DNA of 38,978 nucleotides from an uncultured Candidatus Berkelbacteria bacterium (lineage in GTDB: Bacteria; Patescibacteriota; UBA1384; UBA12157): NCBI GenBank assembly GCA_903877885.1, contig CAIRFN010000006.1:220332-259309 (forward strand), in the 5' to 3' direction. Positions 8,477-26,895 of the stretch are shown here, piece after piece. The translations under genes and the position numbers were made by a program. The notes under the pieces were generated by a model. The model was not told where the DNA came from, searched no databases, and saw only the letters and a list, made by a program, of their open reading frames with translations. Positions within the stretch are counted from its first letter, which is position 1; every line of letters begins with the position of its first letter.

Positions 8477-9526
8477 ATGAAAAAATCATTCACTTTAATT
8501 GAACTCTTGGTGGTTATTGCTATTATTGGTATTTTGGCGGCTATGATTTTAGTCGCTCTAAATTCCGCTCGCGCCAAAGCTAAAGATGCTCGAGTTAAAT
8601 CTGATATGACTCAAGCTCGAAACTTAGCCCAAATTTACGAAGACAATAATCCGACTAAAAGTATTAACTGTTTTGGTACAACTTGTGATGCTTTTTCTGA
8701 TCCCTCGAATGCTGACGAATTACAAAAAATCGCTCAATTAAGTGCCGATGCTAATTCTCATGGCAGTACTCTTGGTGTCAGTGCTGATAGTAGTCAAATT
8801 CAGGTTACCGCGACTTCGCCTATCCAAGATGCTACTGGGCAAACAACGATTTATACTTTAGCCGATACTAATACTATTACACCAACAATAGTCACTGGCG
8901 ACAATGCCGCTATCGCTCGCGATATGAAACGTATCGCCGATATTAATTTAATCGCTAATGCTTTAAAACAATATAAAGCTCTAAGGGGGCATTATCCGGC
9001 ATTTGCTCCAGCTTATAGTGGGCCTGGCTGTTCTGGTCCTGTATGCGCTTCTCCAGGTTGGCCAGGTTACTGGGAATATGGTACACCATATCAAAGTAGT
9101 TCTGATGCTTCTGACGGTAGTATGAACGCAAGACAAGGCCCATATTATTGTTGGGGAGGAGATGTTGATCTTGGTAGTTCTGCTTTTGGTCCAGTCCACG
9201 CTGGCGATACTTTCTTACAACCTTTGGTTGATGCAGGAATTTTGTCGAGCGTGCCGATTGAAACTAAACCAGGCGGAGTAGCAGATTCCTATAATCCCGG
9301 ACGATTTTGCTCTTATAAGTATAATATAATCCATACATCAGTTAATTCATCTGGTTGTTCTGGTCAAGCATACGCTCAATTATATGCTAGTTTAGAAACA
9401 AATATGGGTCCAACTACCGATATTAGACCTAATGATTTAAAAGCTGGAGTTTGTTTTCCTTGGGGTTATGAAGGTGACGGTGGCTTTCCAAATAATCATA
9501 TTGCCGTTTATTTACCTGTTAATTAA
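8477..9526 (+). CDS. Type IV pilin-like protein, first of a tandem pair
   Basis: 349 aa with a class III prepilin signal: short MKKS, then [20 protein letters not shown] with the +5 Glu. It should be processed by a prepilin peptidase and assembled into a type IV pilus or pseudopilus. The residue before the cut is Ser rather than the usual Gly. After the helix come a conserved basic stretch ([13 protein letters not shown]) and a long C-terminal domain (about 150-349) with several Cys, including [10 protein letters not shown] and FCSYKYN, probably disulfide-bonded. It is much longer than typical 150-residue pilins. Shine-Dalgarno GGAGGG precedes ATG. It is paralogous to the next gene and likely cotranscribed (27-nt gap). 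Confidence 0.9.
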
Positions 9527-9553
9527 CTCTAAAACTAAAAATTGTGAGGGAAT

Positions 9554-10561
9554 ATGAAACAAAAATCATTTACTTTAATTGAACTCCTGGTGGTTATCGC
9601 CATCATTGGCATTTTAGCCGCCATGGTTTTGGTCGCTCTAAATTCCGCTCGCGCCAAAGCTAAAGACGCGCGAGTTAAGTCTGATATGACTCAAGCTCGC
9701 AACTTGGCACAAATTTATACTGACGATAATCCTGGTAAAACTCTCTCTTGTACTACCACAGGCACTGATACAACTTGTAGCGATAACACTGATGAAACGT
9801 CAAAAATTATTCAATTAGGCACTGATGCTACTTCTCAAGGTAGTAGTCTTGGTGTTAGCGCCGATAGTAATCAAATTACTGTCACCGCGACTTCGCCAAT
9901 CCAAGATGTAGCTAATAAAACCACAATTTATACTTTAAATGATACTAATACTATTACACCGAAATCAGTAGATGGCGAAAGTGCCGCAATCGCTCGCGAT
10001 TTAAAGAGGTTGGCTGATATCAAATTAATTACTAATGCATTAAGACAATATAAAGCGTTAAAAGGTCACTTTCCAAGTTATAACGTGGATGCTTGGTATG
10101 TAAATACTCCACCTGGTTCATCAGGGCATTGGGATGATGGTAGTGCCGATACCTCTGATGGACATTATATGGCAAATGATGGAGATAGTCATTATCCTTA
10201 TCATTGTTGGGGTAAATCCGTTGATTTAGGCAGCAATGTTCTTGGTCCAATTTATCCCGGTGATCCTGGTAACGATACTTTTTTGCAGCCTTTAGTCAAT
10301 GCTGGAATTTTATCAAGTGTACCAATTGAAACAAAAGTTGGGGGAGTTGCAAACTCGGAAAATCCAGGTCGATTTTGTTCTTATCGATATGATTATTCAA
10401 CGATTTGCGGTCATAATTATGCTGTTCTTTATGCTGATTTAGAAACAGATATGGGGCCGACAGAAGATCCTAGACCAGCCTGTTATCAACCAACTGGCTC
10501 TGGTTTAGGATATCGTAATCCGGGTGAAAATAATAATATTGCTGTTTATTTGCCAGAATAA
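9554..10561 (+). CDS. Type IV pilin-like protein, second of a tandem pair
   Basis: 335 aa paralogue of the preceding gene. The N-terminal helix is nearly identical ([20 protein letters not shown]), again with Ser before the cleavage site. About the first 120 residues align closely; the C-terminal domain has diverged but keeps landmarks such as [36 protein letters not shown], and an ending IAVYLP. The diverged exposed part beside a conserved helix is what one expects of surface-exposed pilin subunits. Shine-Dalgarno GAGGG lies before ATG 9554. Major versus minor pilin roles cannot be told from sequence. Confidence 0.9.
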
Positions 10562-17100: not shown

Positions 17101-17913
17101 CCAGCGATCATTTCGGAAATCGATGGTAAAGTTCAAATCATTGATGAAAAAGATATTAAGAAAATCGTGGTTACGTCGCCGGAAATGCGCACTGAAACTT
17201 ATATGTTGGAAAAAGATTATGAACCAGCTGTACTTGATGGCGATGTCATCAAGGCCCGCCAAGCCATTGCGATTGCTCAAGGTAAAAAAGCGGTTCGTAG
17301 CGCCATTATGGGTAAAGTTAAAATTAGCAAAGATAAAATCGAAGTTATTTCCACCGACCGCACATCTGTTAGCTACACTGTTCCATCAAAGACCAATTTA
17401 AAGGTTGAAGATGGCGATACAGTTGAAAAGGGTCAGGAATTAACTGATGGTCACTTGAATCTTGAAAACTTGCTTAAATATCGTGGTCCACAAGCAACCC
17501 AGAAATATATTATCCGTGGCGTTCAAGAAATTTATGCTTCTCAAGGTCAAACCATTAACGATAAACATATTGAAATCATTGTCCGCGAAATGTTTTCTAA
17601 GCTTAAGATTAAATATGCCGGTGATTCAACCTTCTTGGTTGGTCAAGTCTTAGACAATACTGAAGCTTTGAAAGAAAACAAAAAATTGCGTGAAGCTAAA
17701 AAGAAAGAAATTACTTTCGAAGAAACAATCATGGGCATCACTCGTGTTGCCTTGGTTACCGAAAGCTTCTTATCTAGCGCTTCCTTCCAAGAAACCACTG
17801 GTGTTTTGATCGATGCCGCGGTTCGTGGTGCAGTTGATCGCTTGCAAGGTTTGAAAGAAAATGTTATAATTGGAAAGTTAATTCCAGCCGGAACAGGTTT
17901 TGTCCAAAAATAA
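14149..17913 (+). CDS. rpoC: RNA polymerase beta' subunit
   Basis: 1254 aa. The N-terminal zinc finger (CYCGKYKKIRYKGVICDKCG) is followed by the catalytic magnesium motif NADFDGD (502-508), the bridge-helix/trigger-loop region (GARGSFAQVTQLAGMKGLV), a second Cys cluster (CEAERGLCQTCYG) and the conserved GIMAAQAIGEPGTQLTMKTF block. It lies 21 nt downstream of rpoB with an AGGAG before the ATG. The protein ends VIIGKLIPAGTGFVQK, and the same 15 residues from the first Ile are encoded again at 17987-18034 with different codons. The repeated copy, not the gene's own stop, lies at a normal distance from rpsL. Confidence 0.98.
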   Translation: MNKEKIRIKPKEAPRITDFDALKISVASPDEISNWSYGEVTKPETINYRTQKPERDGLFDEKIFGPTKDWECYCGKYKKIRYKGVICDKCGVEVTRSSVRRERMGHIDLSVPIAHIWYIRSVPSILGLLLDLSVTDLEKVVYFAGFVILAVNEDIRKSSLEQLEREYTEAKAKIKDNMIMAKVEGSYKATKSEITNLTEKKILSEGQYHELSMKYGQIVKVGIGAEAVFELLKRADLDKLQAEFSSELDSAIGLNRRKVLRRLRLVTEMKEAGLKPEWLVLTRLPVIPPDLRPMVQLDGGRFAASDLNDLYRRVINRNNRLKRLLSQGAPEVICRNEKRMLQEAVDSLIDNSARRGRAVSTGSTARKLRSLSDMLRGKQGRFRQNLLGKRVDYSGRSVIVVGPNLKLHQCGLPKMMALELFKPFVISKLINEGHVHNVKNATKMMEHGDPIVWDILEKITVDYHVLLNRAPTLHRLGIQGFQPVLIEGKAIQVHPLVCQAFNADFDGDQMAVHVPLSSQAKEEVARLMRSANNLLKPASGEPVIIPRMEIVSGIYWLTSVETDAAGTGKVYAGKNEAILAYQLGYLHPRALVKVRMKMSKGDPKAIDERVETTVGRILFNNILPDALQFRNETFDSKALKKILAEHFNKYDLAETAEFADRIKKIGFEYSTDSGMTISISDVQMPTDKDQYIKEGEKLLEEIESQYQRGLITESERKVKIVEIWTEVRSRIEAQMVEQYDQNSPVYQMVKSGARGSFAQVTQLAGMKGLVVNPAGEIIEVPIKSNYKEGLPMFEYFISTHGARKGKSDTSLRTSEAGYLTRRLVDVAQDIVISETDCGTKKFFQIGRAESEEMGEKFSQRLAGRIAGSDVKGTKGVIVKAGAEIDPEKAVMIESEADIETVAVRSPLTCEAERGLCQTCYGRDLASGHIAEFGAVVGIMAAQAIGEPGTQLTMKTFHMGGVSGEDITSGLPRVEELFEARVPRNPAIISEIDGKVQIIDEKDIKKIVVTSPEMRTETYMLEKDYEPAVLDGDVIKARQAIAIAQGKKAVRSAIMGKVKISKDKIEVISTDRTSVSYTVPSKTNLKVEDGDTVEKGQELTDGHLNLENLLKYRGPQATQKYIIRGVQEIYASQGQTINDKHIEIIVREMFSKLKIKYAGDSTFLVGQVLDNTEALKENKKLREAKKKEITFEETIMGITRVALVTESFLSSASFQETTGVLIDAAVRGAVDRLQGLKENVIIGKLIPAGTGFVQK

Positions 17914-18034
17914 ACATTTTAAAAACATTAAACGTAAGTTATAGAAATCTAACTTTCCAATTTCCGCGGTTTGCGGAAGCAAACCCATTATAGGGAAACT
18001 GATACCAGCAGGTACAGGTTTCGTACAAAAGTAA
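17866..18034 (+). other. Recoded C-terminal duplication with inverted repeat, rpoC
   Basis: Copy A is 17866-17913 and copy B is 17987-18034. Both encode IIGKLIPAGTGFVQK and TAA. Eleven of 15 codons differ and every change is synonymous. AATTGGAAAGTTA (17868-17880) in A has its exact reverse complement at 17950-17962. Next comes a hairpin, GGTTTGC-GGAA-GCAAACC (17968-17985), with an alternative TTCCGC/GCGGAA pairing; it ends one base before B. Deleting 17866-17986 restores rpoC, with its stop 12 nt before the rpsL ATG. Confidence 0.92.
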
Positions 18035-18046
18035 GGAATATATCAT

Positions 18047-18460
18047 ATGCCAACAATATCCCAATTAATTCGTAAACCAAGAAAATCTAAAGAAACTAAG
18101 CCAAAAACCCCAGCTTTGCATCGTGGCTTTAACTTCTTAAAAAACCGCCCGATCGATTTCGAAAATGGCCGACCATTTATGCGTGGTGTTTGTATTAAAG
18201 TTACAACTACTACTCCTAAAAAACCAAACTCGGCGCTTCGAAAAATTGCTCGTGTGCGTTTGACTTCCGGTCAAGAAGTAACTGCTTACATTCCAGGTGA
18301 AGGTCACAATCTTCAAGAACACGCTGTGGTTATGATTCGTGGCGGTCGGGTAAAAGATCTTCCTGGTGTGCGTTATCATATTGTTCGAGGTAAACTCGAT
18401 ACTGGTGGCGTCGAAAAACGAAAACAAGGCCGTTCTAAATACGGAGCCAAAAAGAGTTAA
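18047..18460 (+). CDS. rpsL: 30S ribosomal protein S12
   Basis: 137 aa, decoding-centre protein. Conserved blocks include [40 protein letters not shown] and [12 protein letters not shown], including the Lys residues at streptomycin-resistance sites in the wild-type form. Between the N-terminal QLIRKPR and the core is a segment ([20 protein letters not shown]) that makes it longer than the 124-aa E. coli protein. The Shine-Dalgarno AAGGA overlaps the stop of the rpoC copy B, which implies that B was the original neighbour. Confidence 0.98.
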
Positions 18461-18478
18461 AATAATTAAATAATGCAG

Positions 18479-18511
18479 AATTCAGAATTAATAAATTATG
18501 CATTCTGAATT
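18479..18511. repeat. Palindromic hairpin between rpsL and rpsG
   Basis: AATTCAGAAT (18479-18488) pairs perfectly with ATTCTGAATT (18502-18511) over 10 bp with a 13-nt loop. There is no T run and no recoded gene end, so it is a separate AT-rich intergenic palindrome. Confidence 0.6.
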
Positions 18512-18530
18512 AAATCATTAAGGATATTTT

Positions 18531-18998
18531 ATGCGCGGAAAACAAGCTGTAAAAAGATTAATTAAACCGGATTTGAAATATAATTCACAAACTGTGGCTC
18601 GCTTTATTAATAAAGTGATGTATCGCGGTCAAAAAGAAACCGGTCGAAAACTGGTTTACAAAGCTTTTGATATTATCAAAGATAAGTTAAATACTGAACC
18701 TTTGAATGTGTTTGAAACTGCTTTGAAAAATACTGCTCCACTTTTAGAAGTTAAAGCTCGCCGAATTGGTGGCGCTACTTACCAAGTGCCAATGGAAGTT
18801 CGTCCAGAACGTAAAATGGCTTTAGCCATGCGTTGGATTATTGGTGCTTCTCGTGCTGGTCACGGTGATTTTTCCGAGCTTTTGGCTAAACAATTGATGG
18901 ACGCCTTTAACAATACTGGCGATGCCATGAAAAAGCGTGAAGTCTTGCACAAGATGGCCGAAGCCAACAAAGCTTTCGCCCACTATGCTAGATTCTAA
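18531..18998 (+). CDS. rpsG: 30S ribosomal protein S7
   Basis: 155 aa, close to the usual 156. S7 starts assembly of the 30S head and lies at the tRNA exit site. Blocks seen: MRGKQAVKRLIKPD, RFINKVMYRGQKE, GGATYQVPMEVRPERK and the terminal MAEANKAFAHYARF. Shine-Dalgarno AAGGA precedes ATG 18531. The end of the gene is duplicated downstream: YARF plus stop recurs at 19039-19053 (see the cassette at 18984-19053). A REP-like repeat and a strong terminator end the operon. Confidence 0.97.
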   Translation: MRGKQAVKRLIKPDLKYNSQTVARFINKVMYRGQKETGRKLVYKAFDIIKDKLNTEPLNVFETALKNTAPLLEVKARRIGGATYQVPMEVRPERKMALAMRWIIGASRAGHGDFSELLAKQLMDAFNNTGDAMKKREVLHKMAEANKAFAHYARF

Positions 18999-19053
18999 CG
19001 GAATCTAGCACAACGTTCTTGCTGTCAAGCAAGGTTGTTACGCGAGATTCTAA
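18984..19053 (+). other. C-terminal duplication with inverted repeat, rpsG
   Basis: Copy A, TATGCTAGATTCTAA (18984-18998), and copy B, TACGCGAGATTCTAA (19039-19053), both encode YARF and stop, with two synonymous differences. GCTAGATTC (18987-18995) pairs with GAATCTAGC (19001-19009). A second hairpin, ACAAC...CTTGCT-GTCA-AGCAAG-GTTGT (19010-19038), ends exactly where B starts. Deleting 18984-19038 restores the gene. Confidence 0.75.
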
Positions 19054-19066
19054 TAAATTTTAAATT

Positions 19067-19112
19067 GTCATTCTCGAGCCGGATGGTAATCCGACATCAA
19101 GAATCCAGAATA
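19067..19112. repeat. REP-like dispersed hairpin, copy 2
   Basis: Second copy of the repeat at 380-433. Outer stem ATTCT (19070-19074)/AGAAT (19100-19104), inner stem CGGAT/ATCCG (19080-19084/19089-19093). The inner stem differs from copy 1 in sequence and length but still pairs. Placed between the rpsG duplication and its terminator. Confidence 0.65.
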
Positions 19113-19120
19113 CGATATAC

Positions 19121-19146
19121 AAAAATGACCCTCCGGGGTCATTTTT
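19121..19146. terminator. Terminator after rpsG, symmetrical
   Basis: AAAAATGACCC (19121-19131), loop TCCG, GGGTCATTTTT (19136-19146): an 11-bp stem with an A run on one side and T run on the other, so it could work in both directions. Confidence 0.9.
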
Positions 19147-19158
19147 GGTTGTAACTAA

Positions 19159-19187
19159 TTGACATTTTTGATTTTTTATGGTATAGT
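19159..19187 (+). promoter_or_regulatory. Promoter of the 19277-20242 gene
   Basis: -35 TTGACA (19159-19164), 17-nt spacer, -10 TATAGT (19182-19187). The leader can fold a GATGGTT/AACCGTC hairpin near 19198-19216. Confidence 0.8.
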
Positions 19188-19276
19188 TAGATGTTTAGAT
19201 GGTTGAAAAACCGTCAAAAGCATCTGGATAATTTAATATTGGCGCGATTCGCGAAATTTGTTTTAGGGAGAAACCA

Positions 19277-20242
19277 ATGACAAGGGAAGACAAAGCTGTT
19301 TTTCGAGCAGCGATCGAACTGATGACTTCTAGTAAAGCCGTGCGGCAAAGTCGTAACCAGGCTGCCAGAACTTATCGTGGTGTTCATGTTACTGTTGATG
19401 CTGATAGTGGCAAATTGCCAGCCGGCATTGCCATGGATTTAGCTAAATTTCTGGCTGATTATGGCTTTAGAGGAAAAGCTCAATTCAGTGCTTCAATTAT
19501 TGGGGCAGGTCAGGTATTCAGTGGAATTCATTTGGTCAAAGGTTGGCCAGACATGCTCGCTATCGAAATGACTTTCTGTAAAAATTGTCAGGCGGTTCGA
19601 TTATGGTTGTATGTTACGGCCGAGCAATATGATAAAGTCATCTATCGTTTTAATCTAACGAGCGATAATTCTATTAATGAATTATTACTCGTGGATAAAA
19701 TCACAGATGAAACATCAAATAAAGAAACGATTTATTTAAAAACCTGGTCCGAGGAAACTTTGAAACAAATTCTAGATAATCTGCAAGAGTTCGCAAATCA
19801 AAATGGCGAATTCGAATTTAAGGCATTATGTCAAATTGTAATGGAAAGATTCCAAATTAGTTCGGCTATTGATGGCCGAACTTTATATTTTGGTGTCGCT
19901 AAGCCGATGATCGAAGCAGGACATCTCACCAGAATTAGTAAGCAACTCTATCGGCTCAATTCGGCCCCGTTTCTTCTGCCGGAAGTTTTATCGGCGTTAG
20001 TCGAATCTGATGCTGATGAGCTGAAAGCTACTCGTGCCTACACTTTAGTCCGCGAAGCTCAAGCAGCTAAACGGGCTCTAGAGACTTTGGAAGTCGAAGA
20101 TCAGCAATTGCATACAAAACAAGAGTTGATGTATGCGCAATTAACCGAAATTGAAATTTCCAGAGCCGATTTGGCTAAACGGATTGAATCCGCTAAGCTG
20201 ACTATCGACCAAGCTCGAGTCGAACTTGAGCAAATAGTTTAA
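19277..20242 (+). CDS. Hypothetical protein with C-terminal coiled coil, 321 aa
   Basis: Not recognised. Residues about 1-135 look like a mixed alpha/beta domain containing one CxxC (FCKNCQAVRLWLYV). About 150-235 may be a helical winged-helix-like region (LKQILDNLQEF to LTRISKQLYRL; inference from helix pattern only). About 240-321 is a strong coiled coil (AQAAKRALETLEVEDQQLHT onward). No signal peptide or membrane segment. Shine-Dalgarno AGGGAG precedes ATG 19277. It is a stand-alone gene with consensus promoter and terminator. It could be a DNA-binding or scaffolding protein, but nothing proves that. Confidence 0.75.
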   Translation: MTREDKAVFRAAIELMTSSKAVRQSRNQAARTYRGVHVTVDADSGKLPAGIAMDLAKFLADYGFRGKAQFSASIIGAGQVFSGIHLVKGWPDMLAIEMTFCKNCQAVRLWLYVTAEQYDKVIYRFNLTSDNSINELLLVDKITDETSNKETIYLKTWSEETLKQILDNLQEFANQNGEFEFKALCQIVMERFQISSAIDGRTLYFGVAKPMIEAGHLTRISKQLYRLNSAPFLLPEVLSALVESDADELKATRAYTLVREAQAAKRALETLEVEDQQLHTKQELMYAQLTEIEISRADLAKRIESAKLTIDQARVELEQIV

Positions 20243-20264
20243 ATTCTATTTCTATCGAACCATG

Positions 20265-20289
20265 CCGGTCGTTTATTCGACCGGTTTTT
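20265..20289 (+). terminator. Rho-independent terminator
   Basis: CCGGTCG (20265-20271), 6-nt loop, CGACCGG (20278-20284), then TTTTT. Confidence 0.9.
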
Positions 20290-20313
20290 GGTACTATTTT
20301 TCAGACTTATCTC

Positions 20314-20342
20314 TTGACAAAAGACGGATTTTCTGGTACAAT
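20314..20342 (+). promoter_or_regulatory. Promoter of the 20433-21092 gene
   Basis: -35 TTGACA (20314-20319), 17-nt spacer, -10 TACAAT (20337-20342). The leader of about 80 nt contains a GACCG/CGGTC hairpin (20391-20395/20403-20407). Confidence 0.85.
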
Positions 20343-20432
20343 TTTTAGTTCTGAATATTTCGGAACAACTTAAAAATATAACTAAATAGAAGACCGACAC
20401 AAGCGGTCAAATTTGCTTAAAAGGGGTGTGAA

Positions 20433-21092
20433 ATGGCACGACCATCACACGTCAAAAATTCTGTCGGCGGCGCCGGTGTTAAACTGGCCCGGGTGAACGA
20501 AGAGAAGCCAGTTCAGAACAACGACCAACTTCTGGTCATTGTTCGGATTGCTCATCTCAAAGCAAATGGCAATAACCGTTGTTATGGCGATGGCCAGATC
20601 GACAATGGCGCCGGGCAGGCCCAGGTTGGTGACAACGTTTTCATTATCCATGGCGCAGCCAGTCGGATGATGGAACGGGGTTTCGGTGCCGGGTCACTGG
20701 TTGCCGTTAAGATCAAGCGCCAAGAAGGCGAATTCGATCCTGACGGGAAGTACCAGTGGGTTGCGACATATTTCGACATGAACCATGCCGAGAACGTTGC
20801 GATCAACATCTCCGAGTCGATTCAAAAAAAACAGATCGATTATATCGGTCGCGCCCGCGTCGCCTTACAATGCTACAAGGCTTTGGATGCTACCGATCGC
20901 GATGAACCGAAGGCCAAGAAGGCGTATACCGATCTCTGTGCTGGTTTGGCGCAAAACGATTCCGAAGTTGTTCTGTCAGCTGCTGGTCAGCTGAATGTCT
21001 TCGTCCAGGCGATCAACCGCCGAAAAGAGCTCGACGCAAAGTCCAACGCCGAAGCCGCAGCTCTGCTCGCCGAGTTCGGCGATCTCGTCTAG
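20433..21092 (+). CDS. Hypothetical protein, 219 aa, with GC-rich codon use
   Basis: Not recognised. It appears soluble. The first 100 residues are beta-rich (LLVIVRIAHLK, VFIIHGAASRM, LVAVKIKRQ) and the rest mainly helical, Ala-rich and charged, ending ALLAEFGDLV. Its codons favour CTG, GTC, ATC, AAC and GCC, and by eye the gene is well above the GC of its neighbours (about 60% in its first 60 bases). It has a near-consensus promoter, Shine-Dalgarno AAAAGGGG and its own terminator. Biased codons plus strong signals suggest either high expression or recent transfer; the sequence alone does not decide. Function unknown. Confidence 0.8.
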   Translation: MARPSHVKNSVGGAGVKLARVNEEKPVQNNDQLLVIVRIAHLKANGNNRCYGDGQIDNGAGQAQVGDNVFIIHGAASRMMERGFGAGSLVAVKIKRQEGEFDPDGKYQWVATYFDMNHAENVAINISESIQKKQIDYIGRARVALQCYKALDATDRDEPKAKKAYTDLCAGLAQNDSEVVLSAAGQLNVFVQAINRRKELDAKSNAEAAALLAEFGDLV

Positions 21093-21131
21093 GCTCAAGG
21101 ATGAGACAGTCTTCTATCGAACGAACCTACT

Positions 21132-21159
21132 AACCGGTCGCATGATGCTGCCGGTTTTT
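21132..21159 (+). terminator. Rho-independent terminator
   Basis: AACCGG (21132-21137) pairs with CCGGTT (21151-21156), with T residues to 21159. The following TTTTTGGTAT resembles the sequence after the terminators at 445 and 20265. Confidence 0.85.
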
Positions 21160-21204
21160 GGTATCTAAAAATAGAATCATGAATCAAGAAGTATGAATCA
21201 AGTA

Positions 21205-21233
21205 TTGAATAAGATTGAAAATTGATGTATAGT
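21205..21233 (+). promoter_or_regulatory. fusA promoter
   Basis: -35 TTGAAT (21205-21210), 17-nt spacer, -10 TATAGT (21228-21233). Shine-Dalgarno GAAGGAG before ATG 21290. Confidence 0.7.
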
Positions 21234-21289
21234 AGCAAAAGAAGGGGAAATTTTTTAGTAATTAATATTTAACTCTGAAGGAGTATCTT

Positions 21290-23386
21290 ATGGCACGAGA
21301 GTATAGCTTAGAAAAAACCCGTAACTTTGGTATTATTGCTCACATTGACGCTGGGAAAACCACCGTTTCCGAACGTATTTTGTATTATACTGGTAAAACC
21401 TATAAAATCGGTGAAGTTCATGAAGGCGCTGCCACCATGGACTGGATGGAGCAAGAGCAGGAACGTGGTATTACCATCACTTCAGCCGCTACCACCTGTT
21501 TTTGGGCGACCATGGATAATCCAACTGAAAAGGTTCGTTTTAACATTATTGATACTCCTGGGCACATCGACTTTACTGCTGAAGTACAACGGTCCCTCCG
21601 GGTCCTAGACGGCGCTGTAGTTGTTTTTGATGGGGTTGCAGGTGTAGAACCGCAATCTGAAACTGTTTGGCATCAAGCCGACAAGTTTGAAGTACCTCGA
21701 ATCTGCTTTATTAACAAACTCGATCGTATGGGCGCGGATTTTTACCGTTCTTTCCAATCAATTATTGATCGCTTAACCAATTACGCTGTGGCCATGCAAA
21801 TCCCAATCGGGACTGAAGCTGATTTGGAAGGCGTCATCGATCTTTTGAAAATGAAAGCAATTTATTTTGATGGTGACAAAGGCGAAAAGTTGCGCGAAGC
21901 GGAAATTCCAGCCGAGCTTAAAGCTGATGCTGACAAATATCATCAAATCTTGATTGAAAAAATTGCCGAAAATGATGAAGATTTACTCAATAAATACCTC
22001 GAAGGCGAAGAATTAAATATCGATGAATTAAAGAAAGCGGCTCGCAAAGCCACGATTGATAACAAATTGATTTTGGTTTTCTGTGGTTCGGCTTTAAAAA
22101 ACAAAGGTGTTCAACCAATGCTTGACGCGGTTGTTGATTATTTGCCAAGCCCACTCGATATTCCACCAATCAAAGGTATCAAACCTCGAACCGATGAGCA
22201 ATTAGAGCGACACGCATCGGACGCCGAACCATTTGCCGCTTTGGCTTTCAAAGTTGCCGCTGATCCTTTTGTTGGGACTTTGACTTTTTTCCGCGTTTAT
22301 TCCGGAACCTTAAAAGCCGGTTCCTATGTAGCTAACCCAGGTAAAAATACCCGAGAACGCATCGGCCGTATTGTTCGACTCCATGCCAATCACCGTGAAG
22401 ATGTAGAAGACGTTTACGCAGGGGATATTGCCGCCGCCATTGGTTTGAAAGGCACTTTTACCGGAGATACTCTCTGTGATGAAGCTAGCCCAATTCTTTT
22501 GGAAACAATTGAATTTCCTGAACCAGTTATCTCGGTGGCGATTGAACCAAAAACCAAAGCTGACCAAGAAAAAATGGGTATTGCTTTGAATCGTTTGGCC
22601 CAAGAAGATCCAACTTTCCGAATCAAGGGCGACCATGAAACTGGTGAAACTATTATCTCTGGTATGGGTGAACTTCACTTGGATATTTTGGTTGACCGTA
22701 TGAAACGCGAATTTAAGGTTGAGGCCAATGTTGGTAATCCCCAAGTGGCTTACAAAGAAACTATTCGCAAATCGGTTAAACAAGAAGGTAAGTTTATTCG
22801 CCAATCTGGTGGTCGCGGTCAGTATGGTCACGTTTGGATTGAATTAACTCCATTGGAACGCGGCGCCGGTTTTGAATTTATTGATAAAGTTGTTGGCGGC
22901 GCCATTCCAAAAGAATATATTCCAGCAGTTGAAAAAGGTGTCAAAGAAGCCATGGCTAAAGGTGTGGTGGCAGGCTACCCATTGGTTGACGCCTCTGTTA
23001 CCCTTTACGATGGAACTTTCCACGAAGTCGATTCTTCGGAAATGGCTTTCCAAATTGCCGGTTCGATGGCTTTCCAAGATGGTGTTCGTAAAGCCGATCC
23101 AGTGATTTTGGAACCAGTCATGAAAATTGAAGTCGTTACTCCTGAAGATTTTATGGGTGATGTAATGGGTGACCTTAACTCAAAACGTGGTCAGATTAAA
23201 GAAATGTCTGATCGAGCTAAAATGAAGGTGATTGACGCGCAAGCGCCACTAGCCGAAATGTTTGGTTATGCCACTCAGCTTCGTTCCATGACTCAAGGTC
23301 GCGCTTCCTATACCATGGAATTCGATCATTTAGCTGAAGTTCCGGCTCACATTGCTCAAAAGATTATCGACGGCCGACAGAAGTAA
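21290..23386 (+). CDS. fusA: Elongation factor G
   Basis: 698 aa GTPase that drives translocation and, with RRF, ribosome recycling. G motifs are AHIDAGKTT (17-25), [19 protein letters not shown] (from 88) and NKLDRMGAD (from 142). Domain IV and V blocks include [33 protein letters not shown]. Length is standard for a single EF-G. It sits between rpsG and tuf as in the ancestral str operon, but here two orphan genes, its own promoter and its own terminator separate it from rpsG. Confidence 0.98.
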
Positions 23387-23410
23387 AACGATATAGATAT
23401 CTAATCAATA

Positions 23411-23446
23411 AAATAGCCTAATCAGAAATGAAAGGGCTATTTTTTA
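23411..23446 (+). terminator. Terminator after fusA
   Basis: AAATAGCC (23411-23418) pairs with GGCTATTT (23435-23442), extending into a T run. Confidence 0.85.
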
Positions 23447-23521
23447 TTTTAGCAAAAAGCTCATCGTATTTTTTAAAAAATCGTGGTAAAATTAAAGTGT
23501 TAAACAAAAGAAAGGAATCAA

Positions 23522-24397
23522 ATGGACTATATTGCTCTGGCTAAACGCGCTTATCAAATTACAATTAAACACCCGTTTTTGTGGATTTTTGGTATGTTTG
23601 TGGTTGGAACGGTTGGTTTTAGTAATATTGGTAGCTTAAACGATAAAGATAGAGCCGGATTACACAACATCAGCCAAGCGCAAATCAATAATTATATCAA
23701 TGAACACTGGTCATTAGTCTGTTATTTAGCCGGAATTTTAATTGTTCTAGTCGCAGTTTGCTTTGTTTTTGCCATTATTTCTCAAGGTGCCTTAATCGGT
23801 ACGACGGAAAAACTGGAACAAAAAGAGAAAGCGGATTTTCATATCGGTTTTAAAATCGGCAATAAATTTTTTAGCCGGCTTCTTGGTTTAGGAATTGTTT
23901 ATTTCTTGATTATTATGTTAGGAACATTTATTCTTTTTACGCCATTTTTAATGTTTATTGCTGGCAAAATGGTTGTTCCAGCGGTGATTTGGGGATTTTT
24001 TGCCCTAATTGTTTTTGTGGCTTTAGCGATTAGTGTTCAGCTTGTTTCTCCTTATGCGAGTCGAATTTTGGTCTTGGAAGACAAATCAATTAAACAGAGT
24101 TTTAAGGATGCCAATAAATTCGCTTGCAAGCATCTTGGTAAAATTATTTTGGTTTATTTAACTATTGCGATTATTTCAGCGATCTTTGTGACTTGTTTTG
24201 CTTTAGCTTTAATACTTGTTGGTTCAATTCTGGCTCTTATTGGAGTAGCTATCTGGTTGGCATCGGCTATCGCTGGTATACTTTATGTTGCCGCTGTCGG
24301 TTCCGCGCTCTTGATTGTCATTATCATGATTGGCGCGGCATTTAAGGCTTTCCAATCTGTTCTTTTGACTTTGGCGTACAAAGAACTGAAAAAGTGA
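23522..24397 (+). CDS. Polytopic membrane protein of unknown function
   Basis: 291 aa with about six hydrophobic segments (roughly 18-38, 60-85, 118-142, 148-172, 208-240, 245-282). The N-terminus (YIALAKRAYQITIKHPFLWIFGMF) has the 'helix, then K-H-P-x-L-W' start seen in many uncharacterised bacterial membrane proteins of YciC/DUF975-like type; the middle has SPYASRILVLEDKSIKQSFKDA, an amphipathic loop typical of that group. This family link is from memory of the pattern and is tentative. Shine-Dalgarno AAAGGA precedes ATG 23522. The gene ends with TGA just before the first tuf promoter. Confidence 0.8.
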   Translation: MDYIALAKRAYQITIKHPFLWIFGMFVVGTVGFSNIGSLNDKDRAGLHNISQAQINNYINEHWSLVCYLAGILIVLVAVCFVFAIISQGALIGTTEKLEQKEKADFHIGFKIGNKFFSRLLGLGIVYFLIIMLGTFILFTPFLMFIAGKMVVPAVIWGFFALIVFVALAISVQLVSPYASRILVLEDKSIKQSFKDANKFACKHLGKIILVYLTIAIISAIFVTCFALALILVGSILALIGVAIWLASAIAGILYVAAVGSALLIVIIMIGAAFKAFQSVLLTLAYKELKK

Positions 24398-24404
24398 AAG
24401 AGTG

Positions 24405-24433
24405 TTGACGAAAGCAAAAACATTTGGTAAGAT
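24405..24433 (+). promoter_or_regulatory. Upstream tuf promoter P1
   Basis: -35 TTGACG (24405-24410), 17-nt spacer, -10 TAAGAT (24428-24433). Confidence 0.7.
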
Positions 24434-24452
24434 ATTAATCGAGGGAAAAAGG

Positions 24453-24481
24453 TTGACAAACCTTGATTTTTAAGATACAAT
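24453..24481 (+). promoter_or_regulatory. Downstream tuf promoter P2
   Basis: -35 TTGACA (24453-24458), 17-nt spacer, -10 TACAAT (24476-24481). The stronger of two tandem promoters 48 nt apart. Confidence 0.85.
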
Positions 24482-24543
24482 ATGTTAGTATCATTATGTA
24501 AGTTAATTAATAAATAAAAAACTAATTTTATTTGGAGGCCTCA

Positions 24544-25725
24544 ATGGCAGAAAAATTTGAACGCACAAAACCCCATGTAAACGTGGGTACAATCGGTCAC
24601 GTTGACCACGGAAAAACTACCTTAACCGCGGCTATTTTGAAAGTCCAAGCCGATAAAGGTTTAGCTCAAGCTCGTAACGTTGATCAAATCGACGCTGCTC
24701 CTGAAGAAAAAGAACGCGGTATTACTATCGCTACTTGTCACGTTGAATATGAGACTGCAAAACGTCACTATGCTCACGTCGACTGTCCAGGCCACGCTGA
24801 TTATGTTAAAAACATGATCACTGGTGCTGCTCAAATGGATGGCGCTATCTTGGTAGTTTCTGCCGCAGATGGTCCAATGCCTCAAACTCGCGAACACATT
24901 CTTTTGGCTTACCAAATTGGTGTGCCGAAAATTGTTGTTTTCATGAACAAAACCGACCAAGTCACTGATCCAGAACTTTTGGAATTAGTGGAAATGGAAA
25001 TTCGCGATTTGTTAACTAAATATCACTATAATGGTGATGAAACCCCAATCATTAAAGGTTCAGCTTTGAAAGCCCTTGAAGGCGATCCAGCTAACGTTAA
25101 AGCGATTGGTGATTTAATGGATGCGCTTGATGCTTATATTCCAGAACCAGTTCGTGAAACCGACAAACCATTATTAATGGCTGTCGAAGATGTTTTCTCG
25201 ATCAAGGGTCGTGGAACTGTGGCTACTGGCCGTATTGAACGCGGTATGGTTAAAATCAACGATGAAGTTGAAATCGTCGGTATTAAACCAACCAAAAAAG
25301 TCGTTGTCACTGGTGTTGAAATGTTTAAAAAACAACTCGACTCCGGCATGGCTGGCGACAATGTTGGCTTGCTTCTTCGCGGTATTGAACGAGAAGATAT
25401 TGAACGTGGTCAAGTTATTGTTAAACCAGGTTCAATTACTCCACACACTGAATTTGACGCTGAAGTTTATATTTTAAGCAAAGAAGAAGGCGGACGACAC
25501 ACTCCATTCTTCAAAGGCTACAAACCACAATTCTACATTCGCACCACTGATGTGACCGGCGAAGTGGAATTGCCAGCTGATACTGAAATGGTTATGCCTG
25601 GCGATACAATTAGCTTCAAAGTTAAATTAATCCAACCTGTGGCAATGGAAGATGGCATGCGCTTCGCTATTCGCGAAGGTGGCCGAACCGTTGGTGCTGG
25701 TGTGGTAACAAAGATTAATAAATAA
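24544..25725 (+). CDS. tuf: Elongation factor Tu
   Basis: 393 aa GTPase that delivers aminoacyl-tRNA to the ribosome. Motifs: GHVDHGKTT (18-26), [43 protein letters not shown] (Thr where most bacteria have Cys in NKCD) and GSALKALEG. Domains 2 and 3 follow to the usual end VVTKINK. ATG 24544 is chosen; GGAGG at 24534-24538 gives a 5-nt gap, and an in-frame TTG at 24532 overlaps that site. Two tandem promoters suit a very abundant protein. rpsJ follows closely, the standard str-S10 junction. Confidence 0.98.
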
Positions 25726-25730
25726 ATAAT

Positions 25731-25744
25731 CCGCCAGCTGGCGG
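25731..25744. repeat. GC-rich palindrome between tuf and rpsJ
   Basis: CCGCCAGCTGGCGG is a perfect 14-base palindrome in an AT-rich gap, flanked by AT and AA. It shares the TCCGC...GCGGA theme with hairpins after rpoC (17962-17978) and rpsJ (26112-26126). Confidence 0.65.
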
Positions 25745-25763
25745 AAAACGTAGGAGTTGCACC

Positions 25764-26081
25764 TTGGCAAAAGAAAATCAACAAAAAATCAGAATTCGTT
25801 TGAAGGCCTATGACTATCGAATTATCGATAAGTCGGCCCGTAAGATTATTGAAACCGCTGAAAGAACTGGCGCCCAAGTAATTGGCCCAATTCCTTTGCC
25901 AACGGAGAAGAACAAAATCACTGTGCTGAAAAGCTCCTTTGTTCATAAAGATGCTCGCGAGCAGTTTGAAATGCGGATCCACAAACGTTTAATCGACGTA
26001 ATGGAACCAAATGCCAAGACCATTGATTCGTTAATGAGTCTTGACCTACCTGCCGGTGTAGACATCGAAATAAAAACCTAA
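25764..26081 (+). CDS. rpsJ: 30S ribosomal protein S10
   Basis: 105 aa; S10 is in the 30S head and also the NusE antitermination factor. Blocks: [27 protein letters not shown], and [29 protein letters not shown]. The start is TTG 25764 with TAGGAG 8 nt upstream; no suitable ATG exists. It ends EIKT, and EIKT plus stop is encoded again at 26129-26143. Unlike the usual S10 operon, rplC does not follow directly: 211 nt with three hairpins intervene. Confidence 0.96.
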
Positions 26082-26143
26082 TTTTCTTCGGAAAATTAGA
26101 ACTTTGTTTCCTTCCGCCGGGCGGAACGGAAATAAAAACATAG
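26067..26143 (+). other. C-terminal duplication with inverted repeat, rpsJ
   Basis: Copy A is GAA-ATA-AAA-ACC-TAA (26067-26081) and copy B is GAA-ATA-AAA-ACA-TAG (26129-26143). CTAATTTTC (26078-26086), a TTCG loop and GAAAATTAG (26091-26099) form a perfect 9-bp hairpin over the stop; pairing extends with an internal loop to GAAA (26067-26070)/TTTC (26107-26110). The GC hairpin TTCCGCC-G-GGCGGAA (26112-26126) follows and ends two bases before B. Deleting 26067-26128 restores rpsJ. Confidence 0.72.
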
Positions 26144-26157
26144 AAATTAAAATTATA

Positions 26158-26219
26158 TAATAAAATACTTGTCCGGATAAATCTTGCTACGGCGGGATCT
26201 TCCAGACAATATTTTATTA
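26158..26219 (+). promoter_or_regulatory. Long hairpin in the leader of rplC
   Basis: TAATAAAATA (26158-26167) pairs with TATTTTATTA (26210-26219). After a one-base bulge, TTGTC (26169-26173) pairs with GACAA (26205-26209), with further GGA/TCC and ATC/GAT pairs inside and a GC-rich apical loop. Position suggests either a ribosomal-protein operon regulator or an inserted palindrome. Confidence 0.55.
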
Positions 26220-26292
26220 CTTATATAGGATATTAAACTATATAACTACGAAAGCAATCGAAAATTGTTTTCCTCTAGAAAGAACCCAAGAT

Positions 26293-26895
26293 ATGAAAGC
26301 TATTGTCGGAAAAAAATTAGGGATGACTCGGATATTCAACGAAAAAGGTGCTGTAATTCCAGTAACCTTAATTTTAGCTGAACCAAACGTTGTCACTCAA
26401 ATTAAAACTGAAGAAAAAGATGGCTATGCTGCGACTCAAGTCGCTATGGTTCAAGATAAGAAACTCAAAAAACCGCAAGCCGGCCATTTGGCTAAAGTAG
26501 ATATTAAATCTCGAGTTTTGCGTGAATTTGCCTTAACTGATTTGAATCTTGGTGATAAAGTCGATTTAAATCAATTTAATGTCGGCGAAAAAGTGGTCGT
26601 TTCGGCGACCAGTAAAGGTAAAGGTTTTGCCGGTACAGTTAAACGACATAATTTCCATTGCGGACCTAAAACCCATGGTTCGAATAACTATCGTCAACCA
26701 GGTTCAATTGGTTCGATGTATCCACAACGCGTCATCAAAGGCCGCCGCATGGCTGGTCATATGGGTCACGAACAAGTAACTGTCAAGAATCTTGAAGTTG
26801 TACAAGTTGATTTACCAAACCATGTTATTTATATCCGCGGCGCGGTTCCAGGACCGGTCAAAGGTTTCGTCAGAATTTGGAGCGAAAATGTCTAA
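26293..26895 (+). CDS. rplC: 50S ribosomal protein L3
   Basis: 200 aa, early-assembly 23S rRNA-binding protein. Blocks: MKAIVGKKLGMTRIF at the start, KGKGFAGTVKRHNFHCGPKTHGS (positions about 114-136), and GSMYPQRVIKGRRMAGHMGHE. Length is standard. It heads the uninterrupted ribosomal gene run to rplO. No strong Shine-Dalgarno is seen (AGAAAG at 26279-26284), and the 211-nt gap after rpsJ holds the structured sequence at 26067-26219. Confidence 0.97.
   Translation: MKAIVGKKLGMTRIFNEKGAVIPVTLILAEPNVVTQIKTEEKDGYAATQVAMVQDKKLKKPQAGHLAKVDIKSRVLREFALTDLNLGDKVDLNQFNVGEKVVVSATSKGKGFAGTVKRHNFHCGPKTHGSNNYRQPGSIGSMYPQRVIKGRRMAGHMGHEQVTVKNLEVVQVDLPNHVIYIRGAVPGPVKGFVRIWSENV

Follow-up and report, generated by a model that had tools for sequence, protein, structure and literature searches.

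We propose that the gene at positions 20433–21092 of the window, the whole 38,978-nucleotide stretch of DNA analysed here, belongs to a small accessory family, fast-evolving and lineage-restricted, within a Patescibacteria (CPR) class, that GC-rich codons are a property of this family, and that the encoded protein is likely to be abundant and to bind nucleic acid. We give this reading about an even chance of being right. Members would be carried as self-contained single-gene units, each with a strong σ70-type promoter, a short leader with a good ribosome binding site, a GC-rich coding sequence and its own terminator. As the protein diverged, the GC-rich codon use would have been either retained or restored time and again by exchange, and the GC excess would not be solely the trace of one recent import into the window's genome. 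The protein would most probably be small and abundant, with an OB-like beta-barrel, a helical C-terminal part and an affinity for nucleic acid. What can be read directly from the sequences is the anatomy of the unit, its composition, the same anomaly in three members, and the position that two of them have in common.

A GC-rich gene in a self-contained unit

The unit and its upstream neighbour comprise the following features.

19277–20242, plus strand: upstream neighbour u321, 321 aa, with its own promoter (19159–19187) and terminator (20264–20285); not a member of the family
20314–20342, plus strand: promoter TTGACA-17-TACAAT with a TG-extended −10, from the promoter scan
20343–20432, plus strand: AT-rich leader of 90 nt, with a ribosome binding site, AAAGGGG, at 20420–20426
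20386–20401, plus strand: arm of the leader complementary (81%, 16 nt) to the trailer at 21102–21117, from a repeat search and fold; the match may be due to chance
20433–21092, plus strand: GC-rich coding sequence of P0001, 219 aa, with a predicted OB-like barrel at about residues 30–126 and a predicted helical part at about residues 132–215
21132–21159, plus strand: hairpin and T run resembling an intrinsic terminator, from a script scan and RNA fold

The open reading frame (ORF), taken from the ORF list and its translation, starts with ATG and has 219 codons. A preliminary description of this DNA had reported the promoter and a terminator belonging to the gene, and both are present. The promoter matches at 11 of 12 positions, has a TG ahead of the −10 hexamer, and ends 90 bases before the start codon. 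The terminator-like sequence, AACCGG..CCGGTTTTT, was picked up by a script scan and folds as a hairpin followed by a T run; it misses the rules of our promoter/terminator scan, which does not list it. The same description held that the expression signals match the local style. This is true insofar as the same hexamers and spacing, without the TG, stand at 24453–24481 ahead of tuf, but the combination is rare: only three instances turned up in a further 359,634 bases of the genome when both strands were counted. At a looser threshold, promoter-like sites in 17800–26300 are at chance level (17 versus 19.0 expected). We predict that the unit is highly expressed.

The gene has a GC content of 0.536 (GC1 0.64, GC2 0.37, GC3 0.594). 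The excess is confined to the gene: GC is 0.35 in the 190 bases upstream and 0.34 in the 197 bases downstream. Preferred codons include CTG and CTC (11 of 15 Leu codons together), ATC (8/12), AAC (11/16), GCC (14/31) and GTC (7/19). The codon use had been described as unlike that of everything around it, including the ribosomal genes, and our analysis bears this out. GC3 lies between 0.229 and 0.429 in 38 other window genes, ribosomal genes included, which were hand-picked from the 59 window ORFs and named by reading their translations. Relative to bulk codon use, taken from a genome-wide sample of 91,300 codons, the target's codon shifts are uncorrelated with the shifts seen in 18 ribosomal and factor genes (Spearman rho 0.04) and clearly correlated with the shifts in GC-rich ORFs at three other sites of the genome (rho 0.70). 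When GC3 was set against the genome, the target ranked 9th in a sample of 342 ORFs, all 100 aa or longer, drawn from 19 stretches of the same genome (mean 0.343, sd 0.081). Hence, it stands alone among the compared window genes but not in the genome, where GC-rich ORFs form a small class.

Several other ORFs drew our attention. Those at L052:2027–2923 (plus strand) and L053:2204–4982, on contigs C10 and C11 of genome G000, are GC-rich and have unusually folded coding RNA. In the L052 gene, 10 perfect hairpins have stems of at least 8 bp, versus 0.5 in codon-shuffled copies, and the first 720 nt fold with a minimum free energy of −457.5 kcal/mol (z −16.6); the fold z of four L053 ORFs ranges from −4.5 to −11.5. 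By eye, leader repeats seem to be common to the two contigs, and an Rfam search of L052 and L053 gave no match. At L046:3245–5313 (G000 contig C3) there is a tandem pair of GC-rich paralogues, each about 300 aa long and 59% identical to the other, without a Pfam match; a serine recombinase (Pfam Resolvase and Recombinase) lies nearby. The Pfam scan of the listed GC-rich ORFs took in 10 of 13. Within the window, 8477–10561 holds two tandem pilin-like ORFs, each matching Pfam N_methyl, with nearly identical N termini.

The genome that contains the window is 1.0 Mb in size and 99% complete. It has no match to Pfam Ribosomal_L30, which was found in 13 of 14 control genomes, and rpsE overlaps rplO within the window. 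L30 is named in the section of one published account that deals with what sets CPR apart (PMC6744442). In its size and the missing L30 match, the genome fits a Patescibacteria host.

Distant relatives and their positions

The gene had been regarded as an orphan. This does not quite hold, since two distant relatives exist, one found by sequence (P0003) and one by position (P0005). A protein search of 55 genomes of the class matched a single further genome, G032, in which P0003 is 25% identical to the target protein (reciprocal E 1.7e-6 and 4.4e-6). The P0003 gene has a GC3 of 0.84 within a stretch of 44% GC, and all of its Lys, Glu and Gln codons end in G (38/38). Its promoter has the same hexamers as that of the target, a 17-base spacing and an extended −10, and the gene ends in a terminator-like structure. 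It adjoins an RNase J-like gene that is itself somewhat GC-rich (GC3 0.58) and matches Pfam RNase_J_b_CASP at E 1.6e-15.

P0005 was reached by seeking this RNase J-like neighbour in four genomes of the taxonomic family of G032. In G050, of a genus other than that of G032, an RNase J-like gene 40% identical to the G032 copy, and likewise matching Pfam RNase_J_b_CASP, adjoins an ORF of 262 aa, P0005, with a GC3 of 0.72 versus 0.38 for the neighbour. The P0005 promoter is TTGACA-17-TATAAT, and the P0003 and P0005 promoters are identical at 28 of 29 bases. The two proteins share an N-terminal motif, TLA-GL---G-A-E--P, and are similar by BLASTP (E 0.002), mainly in one stretch of the second half. 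A profile search of 30 ORFs matched P0005 at E 0.044. Taken alone, neither the BLAST comparison of P0005 with P0001 (E 1.3) nor its hhalign comparison with a profile of P0001 and P0003 (A1; probability only 4.9%) is significant. The putative membership of P0005 rests on position, promoter and similarity to P0003.

The family thus counted has members in 3 of the 55 class genomes, and a three-row profile built from them found 3 of 379 genomes across the phylum; in both searches these are the members themselves. Two diverged relatives share the GC excess, and P0005 exceeds its own neighbour (0.72 versus 0.38), which argues against a single recent import.

In both relatives the region ahead of the promoter has a feature of its own. 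By eye, the −35 box in L125 (G050) and L124 (G032) forms the 3ʹ arm of ATGTCAATAC..GTATTGACAT, an inverted repeat with a T run after it; the terminator of the preceding gene and the promoter thus seem to overlap. The G032/G050 promoter pattern also occurs, with 2–3 mismatches, at L122:1500, L123:1500 and L126:149 (in G004, in G027 and at a second place in G032), where by eye it precedes short hairpin-forming stretches with CCCCTCC. These stretches are perhaps anti-Shine-Dalgarno small RNAs; an Rfam search of them gave no match.

How stable is the position of the gene? In G001, the nearest relative compared and a member of the same taxonomic family, an unrelated ORF of 126 aa lies between rpsG and fusA, and both the target and u321 are missing from this gap, as judged from a comparison in which 30 of 49 fusA matches were examined. 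u321 (GC3 0.346; promoter 11/12) has no match in the 54 other class genomes, making this the only genome of the 55 to carry it. The terminators of u321 and the target have a 13-base string, CCGGTTTTTGGTA, in common, and this string was not found in 18 other stretches of the genome. Neither gene being in the G001 gap, and u321 being without a match in the class, the pair appears to be lineage-specific as far as the compared genomes show.

In G032 and G050, by contrast with the window's own taxonomic family, the family member shares its position beside the RNase J-like gene across two genera. In G024, of the same genus as G032, the RNase J-like homologue is only 30% identical, and it adjoins a GC-rich ORF of 220 aa (L119:3387–4049, minus strand; GC3 0.66) that has no Pfam match and no similarity to P0003. 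This ORF may be something other than a family member, or a member that has diverged too far to be recognised. If it is the former, genes that are GC-rich but unrelated can settle at sites of this kind, and the pairing of RNase J-like gene and family member may be mobile. The preliminary description had argued that close relatives all carrying the gene at the same place with the same composition would speak against acquisition. Such conservation is lacking within the window's taxonomic family and in G024, and is seen between the genera of G032 and G050. Presence in relatives, which was also to be checked, is similarly divided: a member exists in 3 of 55 class genomes, but the G001 gap has none.

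Alternative explanations for the GC excess

The gene could alternatively have come, once and recently, by horizontal transfer from a donor of higher GC, and have yet to ameliorate, with a promoter and terminator that belonged to the landing place or evolved later. We consider this unlikely, though not strongly so. It would account for the absence of the gene from the G001 rpsG–fusA gap, for the lack of a match in 52 of the 55 class genomes, and for codon shifts that resemble those of other GC-rich ORFs of the genome and not those of ribosomal genes. However, the flanks have local GC and no donor composition, and two diverged relatives have the same excess, with a common site in G032 and G050. 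Scans of genome contigs, viral contigs and phages, which catch mainly close relatives, gave no convincing donor-like homologue. GTG is rare among the Val codons of all three members (1/19, 3/22 and 2/19), which we infer a purely GC-driven donor would not predict. A match in a GC-rich Dormiibacterota genome (L003; 47 residues, 34% identity) was judged to be chance: it contains the peptide pattern by which L003 had been selected, and it sits inside a 907-aa ORF of another kind. A search of another class of the phylum matched 0 of 45 genomes and carries little weight. The earlier suggestion of acquisition from a higher-GC source therefore keeps the foreign codons and the absence from the G001 gap and 52 of 55 genomes on its side, but has local flanks, GC-rich relatives and the want of a convincing high-GC homologue against it.

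If GC-rich codons are instead a family property, as we prefer, either selection holds the coding sequence GC-rich or the family keeps moving through GC-richer hosts. The GC-rich composition would have persisted over time.

Could the codons be those of a very highly expressed gene, optimised for translation? The near-consensus promoter, the strong ribosome binding site and the single-gene unit are in keeping with this, and the ribosomal genes lean slightly to C-ending codons (0.32 versus 0.26), as does the target. In G001, moreover, ORFs with their own promoter and terminator are frequently GC3 outliers (5/10, versus 8/362 of the others; Fisher p 5e-6), a link that we regard as a lead. Yet this association is confined to G001 among four samples, with 1/14 versus 11/328 in G000, 0/11 versus 6/214 in G032 and 1/4 versus 8/271 in G017, none of them significant. 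P0003 is absent from these outlier counts because a longer antisense ORF displaced it in the greedy ORF choice, and some GC-high ORFs in the resulting lists may likewise be false. G-ending Lys, Glu and Gln codons make up 0.55 in the target, versus 0.18 in bulk and 0.14 in ribosomal genes. Codon adaptation, which the preliminary description had proposed to check, places the target 16th lowest of 342 ORFs against the ribosomal reference. With rho at 0.04, optimisation towards the ribosomal set is not supported; this is not ordinary expression tuning, and we think the explanation very unlikely.

We see a similarly small chance that a mobile element left the gene behind, in which case it would be an SSB- or RecO-like gene from a phage or plasmid. 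The top fold match in BFVD is an uncharacterised phage protein (E 1.2e-4, TM 0.27), followed by phage SSBs, viral DNA ligases and unnamed proteins, but these matches come from a low-confidence model. Phage and IMG/VR searches gave no match, PHROGs none with E under 0.09, we noticed no adjoining integrase on reading the window ORF list, and there are no repeat boundaries besides the two like terminators.

The idea that GC-rich codons serve a folded mRNA has, in our view, a chance smaller still: the members do fold better than codon-shuffled copies (z −1.79, −2.37 and −2.58; 120 shuffles), perfect 7-bp hairpins are in excess in P0003 (3 versus 0.2 expected) and P0005 (2 versus 0.4), and GC-high ORFs of G001 have a mean z of −2.53 (18 ORFs) versus −0.61 for 24 ordinary ones (p 0.0013), but the effect is weak and unspecific for the target, since some ordinary window genes reach similar values over their first 660 nt (tuf −2.78, u321 −2.23), though fusA (−0.04) and rpoB (−1.21) do not, and the target has no perfect hairpin of at least 8 bp and a single one of 7 bp versus 0.6 expected. 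In a control, 10 segments of a GC-rich genome had fold z between −2.77 and 1.64. A transcript fold z of −6.1 was set aside, since the transcript is of mixed composition and the reference consisted of dinucleotide shuffles.

The predicted protein and the meaning of the family

Homology and structure prediction, also suggested earlier, yielded the distant relatives described above and an OB-like model of low confidence, but no match of weight for the target in Pfam, PHROGs, NCBIfam, PADLOC or PDB. AlphaFold2, given two sequences, modelled P0001 with a mean pLDDT of 58.6 and a pTM of 0.39. The model has five strands, with a helix after the third, and then further helices; the strand order over residues 30–126 is OB-like. 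By VIA-align 2, it resembles OB domains of SSB, PriB, RecO and asparaginyl-tRNA synthetase with Z 6.3–7.3 (rmsd 2.5–3.7 over 71–85 residues), and its C-terminal part resembles the DnaK lid helices with Z up to 8.8, values in a range (below 8, or about 13 for helices) that may reflect merely a common arrangement. For P0003 the model is of poor quality (pLDDT 47.9); in it the strands precede the helices. The models suggest an OB-like fold, and our best guess is that P0001 is an accessory nucleic-acid-binding protein.

Comparison with known systems gives likenesses and differences. With SSB and PriB, P0001 shares the predicted strand-strand-strand-helix-strand-strand order (VIA Z about 6.3–7.3), but it has an extra C-terminal helical part, and sequence searches of Pfam, NCBIfam, PHROGs and PDB gave no match that passes the usual thresholds. 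SSB has an acidic C-terminal tail. No tail of this type was found in P0003, which ends LPKK, or in P0001, which ends EFGDLV. RecO likewise has an OB-like barrel followed by helices (Foldseek E 7.2e-3, prob 0.96; VIA Z 6.4–6.5), but the VIA matches are confined to the OB part, and the target has no sequence match to the RecO models of Pfam and NCBIfam. Lineage-restricted accessory ORFans of atypical composition are alike in their patchy presence, rapid divergence, single-gene units and deviant GC. The family described here differs in that it deviates towards high GC, and does so again in diverged homologues.

A literature search on such genes found nothing. The analysis defines a protein family that was missed by the model libraries searched. 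A GC-rich gene in an AT-rich genome is routinely taken to be a recent arrival from outside. A broader proposal, which we consider quite unlikely, is that in single-gene units of this CPR class lasting selection acts on the coding sequence itself and keeps it GC-rich, against the mutational and codon bias of the host and through divergence so deep that protein similarity is lost; the family would then be the first traced example. Because its GC deviation recurs in relatives that are too diverged for a simple import reading, the family lends itself to testing whether deviant codon use is maintained by gene exchange or by selection.
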